Made by a program: the position numbers and the translations under genes. A DNA stretch of 64,000 nucleotides from Escarpia spicata (lineage: Eukaryota; Annelida; Polychaeta; Sabellida; Siboglinidae). Shown one piece after another: positions 26,101 to 41,100 of the stretch. Positions within the stretch are counted from its first letter, which is position 1. Every line of letters starts with the position of its first letter. Location of the stretch: contig OZ023217.1 of NCBI GenBank assembly GCA_963995525.1, positions 20,118,770-20,182,769 of the forward strand, in the 5' to 3' direction. The notes beneath the pieces are model-generated. The model had not been told where the DNA came from, did no database searches, and saw nothing but the letters and a program-made list of their open reading frames with translations.

Positions 26101-29100
26101 TCCAGTGGTTGTAGAAACCTTGCAGGAGAGTTGGTGAGCTGCAATCTTGCATGTAGCACAGTAAAACATTGTTTAAGAAAATGCACATGCATTATCTTTC
26201 TCCTTTTCCTCCCTACCACCCTCCCCCAGAATGGGAAGAAGAGATGAACTATGATAACACTTTATTTGTTAACAAGGTACATATGCATAACATGCATTTT
26301 GACTTTAAAAAAGTAGTAATGACAGTTAAAACAGTAGTAACAACATAATACTAATGTACCTGGAGTGACGGAATAGCTGCAACATGTACAGTAAAACATT
26401 TAAATAATATTCCTTCTAATTTTGGCTAAATATGCTTTAACCTTTTCGAGAATACCTATGTTATTTTACTTTATATATTATTTTATACCTAAGTTATTTT
26501 ATTTTAATCCTAGGTCATATCTTTATATTTCATTGATAATTGTCTACTGCTGTTTTAACATTCTCAGGTCCTACAAGTGCAGTAGGGATTCCCATTACAC
26601 ATTAGTTACAGCCCACTGTTTGACACAGCTTAAAATGTACATGCAACTGTCCAGGGGTCTAGTGGGTGCTGTCTGTTGACACAAGCCTCTGCCGGTGACC
26701 AATTACAGATTAGTCCCAGTTTCCATCAAACAATAGCAGGCAGAGACCCAGTGAGGTGGGGGTGGGGTGGGTCACTTGGCACTCTGTCTAGTACAGGCAG
26801 AAACAGACAAAATGTGAAAATTTAGCTTTTTGGGAGGCCCTGGGGTGCCCTTAGAATGATTCAAACACAAATTTCTTGTGTACAGTGACACTACCCTGAG
26901 AGACGTCTATGCAAAATTAGAGAACGTTATTGAAGTTTTTGAAATAACAAAAAAGACAACCTCTGATCCATGCAAGACACAGACTCTGCATGTGACAGAT
27001 GTTGTAGGAAAAGGGATTAGTTGAGGGAAGGAGTGTAGCCAGCCAGTTGTCAATAGAGCTCCTGGGCTGTTCTCCTGCTGTAAACAATTTAGTTAGCAAA
27101 TTTAGCATTTTAGGCGACCTTTGAAGCGCATAGAATGATTCAATCAAATACAGATTTCTTGTGCAGTGACAGTACCCTAAGATACGTCTATACAAAATTA
27201 CAGAAAAAGTTACTGAACGGTTTCCGAGATACGGCAGCTAACGGCGGACGGCAGAAGCAGAGTGATGGCAATAGTCCGTTGGACCTTCGGCCCAAAGGAC
27301 TACCAGCAACACAGTCATTAGGTTGTGAGGTCCCCATCTTTAGGTGTGGTCGCATAAGTCAACAAATATGTAAAGCATTACATAAGGGTTGGTTTACTTG
27401 TCAACACATTGCAGAGAAAATAAATTGACAGAGTGACACCGTCTAGTAAGTGAAACATGTTAATGCAAATTGACGTTGCTAGCAATTATGGATCGTTGAA
27501 ATCGTAAGTTGCACACCACATATTGGAAGGGGGCTATTTGAATAAATACTAAACACAATGTTTTTGGCTTTGTGAACCTACCATCTCTTACACTTTTGGA
27601 GTGACAATAAACTGACAAGCATGCCACAACATTTGTTGACACCATACAGTGAACTATAGGAGACAGATTTTGAGGATCCTGTATAATGACTTGCACCGAC
27701 TATTGACTCGTACCTGCAGTGTTGAGGCCGCCTGCTGGGCCTGGTAGAAGCCCGTCTGCTGCAGTGGCTGCTGGGAGGAGTAGAAGGATGACTGTGGATG
27801 CGGCTGAGGCACCTGCGCCATCCCTGCTGGGGGCATTCCCGGGGCTCTACAAGAAAATGATGATATATAGTAGAACCTCACTTTACGGTCACCTCGGTAA
27901 TGCAGCCACCTCACAATTAAGGTCACCCTGGGACAATCCCAAATTATTTTTGTAACAGTAAAGTAGAAGTAATTAGTCCTGCTAATATGGCCACCTCGCT
28001 ATTCGGGTCAATTTTGGCCAGTACAGAGGGTGACCTTAATAGTGAGGTTTCACTGTATATAATACGTAGTGAAACATCACAGTCAGGCAACAACTTCAGT
28101 ATCACAAGATCACATTCTCTATTATTGTAAGTTTTGCAAATAAATTAAGCTCTTGATTCTATCACTGAGAGGTTAGCCAATAGCGTGAATGGCGGCTTGC
28201 TAATATGAAGGTGTCATGTTGTTTAGTAACAGTATCTATAGCAGCCATGCTACAGTCAGCAAGGATGTCACACATGCATTCCTCACTCACACATACAGTA
28301 AGCCTACCACATTCCACACACATCCATCCAAGTTTGTTTGCCTAAAAAGATTTGCGCTATGTTAGAACTATCCATTGTTATTATCTATCCAGTAAGATGA
28401 CACTGTTTGCTCAGGTCTCATTGTAATCACAGAGAGTCATGGGATTGACAGATTGTAACTATCATCATTGCAAACAAAATGTCGAGTAAACTTCACAACT
28501 ACTGCATTGTTGAATATTAATTACATCATCGTAACCAGTTTTTATTATCCTACCTACATACACCATCAGCAATACCTTTTTATGTACAGATATAGCATAC
28601 TGCATGGATACATGTATGTACACACATCTCACAATCCTATGTAAGAAACAGCTGCGAGTTCCACCAGTAAGCAGCAGTCCCTACCTGTGGTGCATAAGCT
28701 GCGAGCCAATGATCTGCGAGTTGTTGATGGTGGGTGCAGCAGCCGAAGCCGGGGTGACCGTTGACTGGTTCACACTGACTGGCTGACCGGGATCATAGGG
28801 CACAAACAGTGACGGCTGCATGGAGCCCGCCCCTGTGTTGTTCATCAGCTGACCATACTGCAGCTGCAGGGGGTTGCTCTTCTGACCCATACTAGACACT
28901 ACAAAGTAACCAGATCATTGCATGGGACTCATTGTGTCTGTAGCAAAATTTAATATTACCATTCATACCCAGAGTGTCCCACCACAACCGAAGTGTCCCA
29001 CCCCAACCCAAATGTCCCACCCACAATCCAAATGATCCATCCACATCCCAAATATCCAACCACAACCCGAATGACTCACCCCAATCCAAATGTCCCACCC

Positions 29101-38100: not shown

Positions 38101-41100
38101 CACTGAGTTGATGATTCCTACGTCTTTTCTAATGACAAGATAGCTATGTCTAGAATCGTATCCCGGATAAAATGGGTTAATAAGATGACTGTATCCTCAC
38201 AATCAGTTTACATTATCCTAATTGTATACACTGTAAGCAATACCTTTTCGCGTGCAGCCTCCCTCTTCTTTAACTGCAGCTCAGCCTTCTTCTCAGACTC
38301 CTCGACTGCGGCTGCTGCCTTCTGTTTGCTCTTCATCATCTTCTTGGACAACACCTCGTGAAAGCCCTCATTGTTCTCAAACAAGAATGCAGGATCGTCA
38401 ATGGACACCTCTGGCTGGTCGTCAATGACAACCACACCTGCAACATCCACAGACAATGATGTCATCTGGCTTTCTTACCTCTGTTCTACTCTACATTGTT
38501 CTACGCTACACAGGTAACCCCCCTCTCAATTACCAGGTAGAGATAGTAAAAACTAGGGTGTTTTCTGGCTAGGATATTTTCTGAAAAAAGTCACATGAAA
38601 GTGCACATTTGCGAACTACATCCCACTATAATCGTAGAAGACGGTCAAGGAATAGGATAGATATCGTTCAGTTAATTGCACTTTACAGGGGGATTTAGAT
38701 TGCATATGAACTATTTCATATTAATGGTTTTAGTAAATTCAAAGTTCAGGACTATGTTTTCTATCATTGCAATCAGTCATTCAAATGTTCTTTCACCATT
38801 TTGTAAGCAATGATGTAAACAAGACAACCAATCAATGCCAAGCAGCAAGAAGAGAAGGGCCAACAAGCCTTACCTGCAATGTTGTTAATGTCGATGTTTG
38901 CAAGAGCATCTTTCTTCTCCTTTTTGATTTTCTGCGCCTTTGCCACGTCATTCAACTCTGGCTTTTGAACTTTGCTTCTACAAATAATAATTAACATTAT
39001 ATAAATAAACAGTTAAGAATATATAACAACTTTCTTGTTACACAACATTACCAACGTACTACAACAATCACATGCACAAACATCACGCGTCATTATTGTC
39101 ACACGTTATTATTGTTGTAGAAATGAAAATTGAAAAGTTGGTATCATTACAGATAACTAAAACAATAACCATATCTGTTCTGGACGGTAAATAGGTTCAA
39201 TATTGTTTCATTGTTCAATACTGAAAGGCACCTTTCTAGAAACAAACTCAACTTACTTCTGGAGGCCACTGATTGCATTCTGGATGGCTGCGGGGTTCTC
39301 GGGCAGTACTCCATCAACCACATAGACAGCGTTCACATTTTTTGCACCAGACTTATTCCGATTGTTGGCACCCCCTCCGCCCCGGTGCCCCCCTGGCTGG
39401 CCACTACTGCCACCATTAGCTCGGCCAGAGTTGCCAGACCGTTCCTTGCCCTGCTGACCACCACCACCACCGTGGCCGCCACGCTCGACAGAGTTTGACT
39501 TGCGGTTGTCGTTCGCGTTGACGTGTCTGTTTTGTCGGTCGTTGCCTGGCCGCTGGCTCGAGAAGCTCTTCTTCGCCTCGTTCTTCTCGCGGTCGCGCCG
39601 CAGGTCGTCGCGTGAGTCGCACTTCTCTAACACGTCGCTGCTCTCGGACGCCGTCTCCCACTCCTCATTCGCAATGTCCGACGAGTTCTGCTTGATCAAT
39701 GGGGGATTGTTAGCGCTGGGGTTGGATGCACTGCTGCCACCCCTGACCCCCCGAGCTCTGCCTCCACGGCCACCCCGGCCTCGACTTGCAGCCCCCCTCG
39801 CAAACCTCGGCGGGGGTGGGTTCCTCTCGTAGCGACGCTCCTTGCTGAAACGACAATGTCAGATAAGTCAACAAATGTAACACACCTACTATTTCTTTCA
39901 TAAATCTTGACTAAAATCTAGTCAACAAACTTCCCTCCTACTTTTTCTTAAGACAACTCTTAAAACAGCATTGTTTTGCTCAGATCTTAGTAATGAAATA
40001 ATCACATGTAATCATATTATATATGGCTCATCACTGCAAACAACTTTTATCATAAAGTATTATTACCTAACAAATTTATTAGCATGCACCTGTAATTATA
40101 CCAGACATTGGAGACTTTTGGAGTAGTAGTAATACAAGTATTTGGACGTGGCCAGCGGCCATTTCGCAGAAGTAATCGTACAAGGCCGCAACCCATTCTC
40201 ATTAGTGCTTACTTTGAAGACCTGTTCTCCTTATTTTCGTCTCGTCGGTCATCCATCCTCTCACTCACGAAACTGTTGCTCTTGTAGGGTGGTTTACCCG
40301 AGCCGTTTGATCGAGCGGGTGGTGCTGAGTGAAGTCTGCCATCTTTCCCTCCACGGTTCGAGCCACCTACACAAGCCATATCAGTTATGAACACCGAGAC
40401 TGACCAGACCCATAAAAGTATATGTATATGCATGCATAGTAGAACAGAGAAGACTCAAAGTGAAAGCAACAGAAATAGCAAGTTAATATGTAGTAAAGCA
40501 TAGAACATTTGAAGTTGATCTTCAAACATGTCGGTCAACAAAATAAATGATTATTCAAGAAAAAACAGTATGCTATGTTTTATATTATAAGTCTGTATTC
40601 TGAGGGACTAATGCACAGTTATGCTAGAAAAGATCAGAATCAGTCCCATGTATCGTAAAAACTACCATGATAATCTAGTTTACATTCACAAACAAATGTA
40701 CATGTCGGTCTATTCTCCATACCTCTGCCCCTGTGTCCAGACTCTCCCCTCTGTGGAGGCATGCCCATGCTGTTGCTGCGGCCCGCCACGCCTCCCCGAC
40801 TCTCGTCCTGCAAGCCATCGTCTGTCCTCGTCGGGTCACCCATCATTCTGTCACCAGGGGGCCCCGCTGGTCTGCGCTCGCCCCTGTACCCTTGCTGACC
40901 AATAACCTTGTCACTGTAGCTCGTGTGCTCTCTGTCACGACCACCGCGGTGGTTGCGAGAGCCGCCTTGTCGTGATGACGGTTTACTGCCTGCCCTGCCC
41001 CTAGAGGCGCCGTCGTGCAACAATGGCACAACCTTCTCTGTGGAGCTCTCGCTCACGTACGCACTGTTCTCGTCGAGTGACACGTCACTGTCGTCGCCAT

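Follow-up and report, generated by a model that had tools for sequence, protein, structure and literature searches.

Intronic box C/D small nucleolar RNAs (snoRNAs) are freed after splicing, protected by small nucleolar ribonucleoprotein (snoRNP) proteins, and direct fibrillarin to the fifth base from their D or D' box. As a class they are stable RNAs of 60-100 nt to which fibrillarin, NOP56, NOP58, and SNU13 bind. The host location is no defining trait of a snoRNA family; NOL5A, which is named below as a host gene, is an older name of NOP56. In human, SNORD110 is tabled with NOP56 as the host and U1288 of 18S rRNA as the target (PMC5025248 Table 2), and for chicken a single SNORD110 is listed, which has a guide of 13 nt and lies in intron 6 of NOL5A (PMC2653536). 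In PMC3511168, Um1288 is assigned to HBII-55 (SNORD110; Rfam family RF00610, clan CL00076) and Um1232 to plant snoR14 (RF01280, of the same clan), the tables of PMC11542601 place plant Um1234/Um1235 in the same row as human Um1288, and Neurospora CD44 is listed as the guide of Um1227 with HBII-55 and snoR14 as its counterparts (PMC2780460). As far as these tables go, plant snoR14 and Neurospora CD44 are like SNORD110 in guiding the equivalent 18S site. Here, we describe a set of SNORD110-like elements in introns of the PRRC2 gene of the annelid Escarpia spicata, within a stretch of 64,000 nucleotides (the window; GenBank assembly GCA_963995525.1, contig OZ023217.1, positions 20,118,770 to 20,182,769).

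An earlier note, made from the letters of this DNA alone, had placed seven box C/D elements in PRRC2 introns, and all seven were recovered within a few bases of the positions given there, by which the copies are named below. Each lies in a different intron of the gene model on the minus strand, which is the PRRC2 sense strand. A dynamic programme combining splice sites and codon usage gave a PRRC2 model of 34 exons and 2651 amino acids, which is approximate: by eye it is without two small exons (~38245-38440 and ~38875-38980), and it contains a doubtful 28-nt exon (37968-37995). Part of the BAT2 N-terminal domain (BAT2_N, PF07001) was found within one PRRC2 exon (55704-55943, E 5.4e-24). A search with a block of the exons showed four proteins of relatives, with identities of 60-83% over 54-55% of that block.

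Six copies, all except 39971, matched SNORD110 (RF00610) in Rfam 15 at 28.9-44.1 bits and E 6e-6 to 0.092 for the whole window, and in these alignments the C box, guide, D' box, D box, and stem of the copies fell on those of the family. On this evidence, six of the seven elements are predicted box C/D snoRNAs homologous to SNORD110. They have in common with SNORD110/HBII-55 the C box, the guide AAUCUGUCAAUCCC before D', the D box, a TTGC/GCAA-type stem, the length, and the predicted target U in 18S rRNA; they differ in having six copies rather than one and PRRC2 rather than NOP56 as the host, as well as in the D' box and the Rfam score, both considered below. SNORD110 and its target have been described before; what looks new is confined to the host gene and the copy number. 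A limited literature search, lacking most subscription papers, turned up no account of a SNORD110 hosted by PRRC2, which is weak evidence of novelty.

The box architecture was examined with a strict scan for a C box RTGATGA, a D box CTGA, and a closing stem on both strands of the window. The scan returned four of the seven elements (28404, 29293, 34121, and 39971) on the minus strand and no further match on either strand. By chance, 0.1 matches per strand are expected, the average of 20 simulations of a single strand with a first-order Markov model. The three elements passed over were 33004 (damaged boxes), 37293 (stem bulge), and 34900 (stem mismatch). When one stem mismatch in 34900 and one stem bulge in 37293 were allowed, six of the seven elements (five with the guide, plus 39971) had a RUGAUGA C box, a CUGA D box, and a terminal stem. 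The C box, guide, D', C', and terminal stem were common to the six SNORD110-like copies, with the C and D boxes damaged in 33004 (AAGATGA and CTAA). The sharing of C, D', C', and D boxes and stem that the earlier note had ascribed to all seven elements therefore held for the five copies with the intact guide, and not for 33004 or for 39971, which is without the guide. Copy 28404 has the C box ATGATGA, the D box CTGA, and a closing stem of 7 bp, and copy 37293 has a long external stem of 12 bp with one bulge. The external stems of 37293, 29293, and 28404 were predicted at -19.5, -15.3, and -14.6 kcal/mol, respectively, and these longer stems might aid processing.

The guide antisense GGATTGACAGATT was exact in five copies and occurred nowhere else in the window; in 33004 it has a single mismatch (33046-33058). 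Likewise, AATCTGTCAATCCC, the 14 nt that adjoin D', was identical in the five copies, with one change in 33004. Pairing was computed with a eukaryotic 18S fragment from a public contig (Rfam SSU_rRNA_eukarya), which stands in for the 18S rRNA of E. spicata itself. The guide of 28404 formed 14 continuous pairs with this fragment (G-G-A-U-U-G-A-C-A-G-A-U-U-G), leaving the base beside D' unpaired, and the predicted duplex of 33004 had an energy of -17.5 kcal/mol (for 28404 and 29293, see Table 1). The target of the guide, GGAUUGACAGAUUG, lies in the register of human Um1288, and the fifth base counted from D' is the first U of GGAUUGAC, in agreement with the base predicted in the earlier note. 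The Rfam consensus of RF00610 has the same guide letters in the same register. Five of the six copies carry the exact 13-mer, whose fifth base from D' would face the U equivalent to U1288, and 33004 carries it with one mismatch. The proposed family, in which a guide to 18S adjoins D', was borne out for six copies, of which 33004 is probably not functional, and not for 39971.

The suggestion that the methylation site may be new did not survive, because counterparts in human, chicken, plant, and Neurospora are already in print. The site is therefore old, and a new site is ruled out by the published Um1288 and SNORD110 together with their plant and fungal counterparts. The nearby methylated C, Cm1272, is a SNORD66 target. 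Both human Cm1272 and Um1288 appear in the tables of PMC11542601, where Cm1272 is by number 16 positions upstream of Um1288, not a few bases on as the earlier note has it.

Table 1. Positions of the SNORD110-like elements, their guides, and associated features in the window
Feature	Position	Strand	Evidence and context
SNORD110-like box C/D snoRNA, subfamily A (copy 28404)	28404..28476	minus	RF00610 41.5 bits, E 3e-5; strict scan; intron 27847-28684
Guide of 28404, AATCTGTCAATCC, antisense to 18S	28442..28454	minus	exact match; 14-bp duplex with 18S fragment, -24.4 kcal/mol
SNORD110-like snoRNA, subfamily B (copy 29293)	29292..29371	minus	RF00610 38.6 bits, E 2e-4; intron 28899-29605
Guide of 29293, antisense to 18S	29333..29345	minus	exact match; duplex -20.7 kcal/mol
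Degenerate SNORD110-like copy 33004	33004..33080	minus	RF00610 28.9 bits, E 0.092; intron 32150-33440
SNORD110-like snoRNA, subfamily B (copy 34121)	34120..34199	minus	RF00610 37.1 bits, E 4.9e-4; intron 33680-34380
Guide of 34121, antisense to 18S	34161..34173	minus	exact match
SNORD110-like snoRNA, subfamily B (copy 34900)	34901..34980	minus	RF00610 33.4 bits, E 0.0052; intron 34549-35007
Guide of 34900, antisense to 18S	34942..34954	minus	exact match
SNORD110-like snoRNA, subfamily A (copy 37293)	37297..37371	minus	RF00610 44.1 bits, E 6e-6; intron from 37199, donor 38244 by eye
Guide of 37293, antisense to 18S	37337..37349	minus	exact match
Box C/D-like element without SNORD110 guide, orphan (39971)	39973..40042	minus	strict scan; model R1 E 8.8e-5; intron 39845-40212
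PRRC2 host gene, coding exons of approximate model	22654..55928	minus	splice/coding dynamic programme; first exon(s) and untranslated regions unplaced
Relic	28525..28589	unspecified	like 38193-38257, 74% over 65 nt; score 31 vs shuffle maximum 16 in 100

The genome (1.06 Gb, 1097 contigs) was searched for further copies. With RF00610 at E up to 10, 12 matches were obtained, and the PRRC2 copies took the first six places, at E 2.3e-5 to 0.36. The other six, outside PRRC2, had E values of 5.09-9.12 and were taken as chance, because 12 of 14 control genomes also gave matches at the same threshold. Four of them (L012, L015, L016, and L017) had no match to model R1, which was built from the six PRRC2 copies and rediscovers those six by construction; for two (L012 and L015), an Rfam run on 9 kb returned the same weak SNORD110 matches at E 0.19-0.48, and these do not contain the guide. 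Three of the six are neighbours (L012-L014; contig C2:9323051-9323458, 24.8 bits) in a TGATGA-bearing stretch without the guide. A DNA search of the genome with 28380-28500 found only the query itself and the copy at 37284, a result that speaks for close copies, since diverged ones escape such a search. The exact pattern of a C box, 3-14 nt, and the guide had six matches in the genome, five in PRRC2 on the sense strand and one on contig C11, and its reversed-pattern control had none; no match to the exact pattern with a 10-nt gap was found in viral contigs. The scatter over the genome on both strands and outside introns, which the earlier note had named as a refutation, was not seen in these searches.

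We also read 30 kb around the vertebrate host gene. A single NOP5NT exon was found in the genome, on contig C2, and from the downstream exons we take its gene to be NOP56. Its identified exons, all internal, lie between ~5.7 and 16.5 kb of the 30 kb. At E up to 0.5, the only Rfam match in these 30 kb was a weak one to a microRNA, not to a snoRNA, and model R1 gave no match there; hosting by NOP56, a vertebrate trait of SNORD110, was thus not observed in the stretch with the NOP56 exons. In this genome, the predicted SNORD110 copies are found in PRRC2, and none was found in the 30 kb read around the vertebrate host NOP56. The PRRC2 family is also represented among human hosts by PRRC2A, which is tabled with SNORA38 (PMC5025248), by its name an unrelated cargo of the H/ACA class. 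No paper was found with both SNORD62 and PRRC2B, the cargo and host that the earlier note had suggested for vertebrates.

These results make it very probable that the elements are SNORD110 orthologues that were relocated to PRRC2, multiplied there, and guide the methylation equivalent to Um1288. The sequence shows the homology, boxes, guide, register, and sense position in introns, and the genome searches gave no other good match; expression, processing, methylation, and a target in the species' own 18S rRNA are inferred. Each snoRNA would be released from the spliced PRRC2 intron, trimmed back to the closing stem, and joined by the C/D proteins. By pairing with GGAUUGACAGAUUG of 18S rRNA, its arm next to D' would then direct 2'-O-methylation of the first U. 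The copies would have multiplied by local DNA duplication inside the gene, with five looking functional and 33004 decaying.

Several observations weigh against this interpretation. All six RF00610 scores are under the curated gathering score of 64 bits, at which no RNA family was detected in the window. The D' box of the copies is AUGA rather than CUGA. The distance to the 3' splice site that is favourable in mammals is 60-90 nt, and five of the seven elements are 352-854 nt away from the predicted site, the other two, 37293 and 39971, being at 98 and 128 nt; 34900 begins a mere 27 nt away from its predicted donor. The RF00610 genome search scored 65 candidates out of the 103842 seen at first look, so a strongly diverged copy could escape. 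A DNA search of the genome for the 18S rRNA of E. spicata gave a diverged relic only, and the sixth exact match to the C-box-plus-guide pattern (contig C11:41660493) is outside PRRC2.

The 18S-like relic (contig C3:45258837, 1501-1603 of the stretch read) is 77% identical to an 18S fragment, has a changed guide target, and had no Rfam SSU match at the gathering score. The C11 match was rejected as a snoRNA: it reached 17.5 bits (E 0.066) with model R1, compared with 84.9-92.2 bits for the PRRC2 copies that R1 was made from, its alignment set 11 bases against 33 positions in the 3' half of the model, and Rfam at E up to 0.5 gave no match. It lies in an open frame of ~69 residues of putative coding status, and ~0.1 such exact matches are expected by chance (hand estimate).

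The copies fell into subfamily A (28404, 37293, and 33004) and subfamily B (29293, 34121, and 34900), with identities of 70-76% between the subfamilies and 79-95% within them. Variation was unevenly distributed along the alignment of the six copies: 1 of 18 columns of the guide and D' was variable against 36 of 81 overall (hypergeometric P 9e-5), and 1 of 14 columns of the guide alone against 32 of 50 in the rest (Fisher P 1.6e-4; conservative, as the D' columns are counted in the rest), where gapped columns count as variable and columns from related copies are not independent. A guide unchanged between copies that are 70-76% identical suggests that members of both subfamilies were kept working. 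The stretches before the D box differ between subfamilies A and B, and those tried as a second guide gave short or G-U-rich pairings only in a search of the whole 18S-bearing public contig, for which we claim no target.

This constancy bears on the alternative that only one or two copies work and the rest are recent pseudocopies, alike through gene conversion or recent duplication. The pairs 28404/37293 and 29293/34121 are each 95% identical, several copies are distant from the 3' splice site, and 33004 is damaged: besides its altered C and D boxes, it has weak closing arms (-5.4 kcal/mol) and a guide whose mismatch falls midway along the duplex, and it is probably a pseudogene. These features fit pseudocopies; recent duplication alone, however, does not explain a guide held constant in five copies across the divergence of A and B, and we consider this alternative unlikely.

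In the seventh element, 39971, both the C box and the D box are good, the sequence TGATTA resembles a C' box, and the ends form a closing stem. Beyond the six copies on which it was built, model R1 detected 39971 in the window with an 11-nt gap where the guide would be, followed by two weak matches at E 0.14 (33004, opposite strand) and 1.5. A former SNORD110 copy that has lost its guide would give such an alignment, and when the boxes were held, only 1 of 2000 shuffles scored as high. When the boxes and the terminal stem were held, however, 1029 of 2000 did, which means that the likeness is one of boxes and stem, open to any C/D snoRNA; descent of 39971 from SNORD110 is accordingly doubtful. 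Its scores with snoZ169 (29.6 bits against a gathering score of 55, E 0.54) and SNORD29 (24.8 against 48, E 1.7) fell below both gathering scores, and a DNA search of the genome found no second copy. A possible pairing, seen by eye, joins positions 2-8 ahead of its D box to UCUUAGU of 18S rRNA, which presumably lies near human Um1326 (SNORD33). We do not claim this as the target, since 7 pairs at one of ~100 known sites are not rare enough (hand estimate), and no convincing target was found.

Homology between copies extended outside the snoRNAs, with 96% identity between 28391-28473 and 37284-37368 and 83% between 29275-29430 and 34103-34255. The stretch at 38193-38257 that resembles the relic in Table 1 spans the donor site 38244/38245 of the exon at 38245 (donor by eye). 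A copy from an excised intron is expected to start at GT; because this likeness crosses the donor and does not start at GT, it is better explained by duplication of DNA inside the gene, and the two subfamilies most likely spread through local DNA duplication. A dispersed repeat or retroposon with chance C/D-like boxes, as multiple copies and homologous flanks might indicate, is a very improbable origin of the copies, because the good matches in the genome searches were confined to PRRC2 introns on the sense strand and the flank homology enters intron sequence and crosses a donor.

Multiplication within one gene has precedents. Excerpts of PMC8178906 describe multi-copy C/D families (SNORD58 in RPL17, SNORD12, and SNORD53/92) with paralogues across introns of one host gene, as here, where the copies are six, of SNORD110, and the host is PRRC2. 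The same excerpts attribute human C/D copies mostly to recombination in cis, inside a single host gene. Among human C/D families with at least two expressed members, they find all of these members in one host for 59.5%. One snoRNA per intron is given as the prevailing rule in an excerpt of PMC11028025. According to parts of PMC3511168, snoRNAs move among broadly expressed hosts with their function kept, and an old snoRNA in a different host, multiplied there, is a clear case fitting that mobility. As a tentative extension, which we rate somewhat short of an even chance, SNORD110 may have left NOP56 in this lineage, with PRRC2 as the sole source, and the six-copy, two-subfamily set maintained by birth and death in one gene. 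The dose of Um1288 methylation in 18S rRNA would then depend on PRRC2 splicing, and 39971 would perhaps be a sister gene heading to a new target. The relocated and expanded SNORD110 locus reveals no new methylation site or mechanism and represents ordinary snoRNA biology; it also illustrates that Rfam cut-offs can overlook such orthologues, the window being blank at the gathering score.

Other features of the window were noted in passing. No tRNA was found in it, and weak Rfam matches (group I intron, c-di-GMP-II, mir-593, dCoV-5UTR, sR14, sR28, and snoR21) were rejected as chance or C/D-box cross-matches. The intron of copy 29293 also holds a 20-bp tandem repeat of 13.5 copies (28975-29240), and a 43-bp tandem repeat of 8 copies with 99% matches lies within a PRRC2 intron (35170-35520). 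Near PRRC2, a satellite-like array consists of a 58-bp tandem repeat of 39 copies with 98% matches (13741-16010), and a 29-bp tandem repeat of 40 copies (5266-6417) has a plus strand open in three frames over part of its length. A reverse transcriptase fragment with an internal stop (10922-11692, minus strand; RVT_1 E 4e-7 for 11219-11692) is probably a LINE relic.

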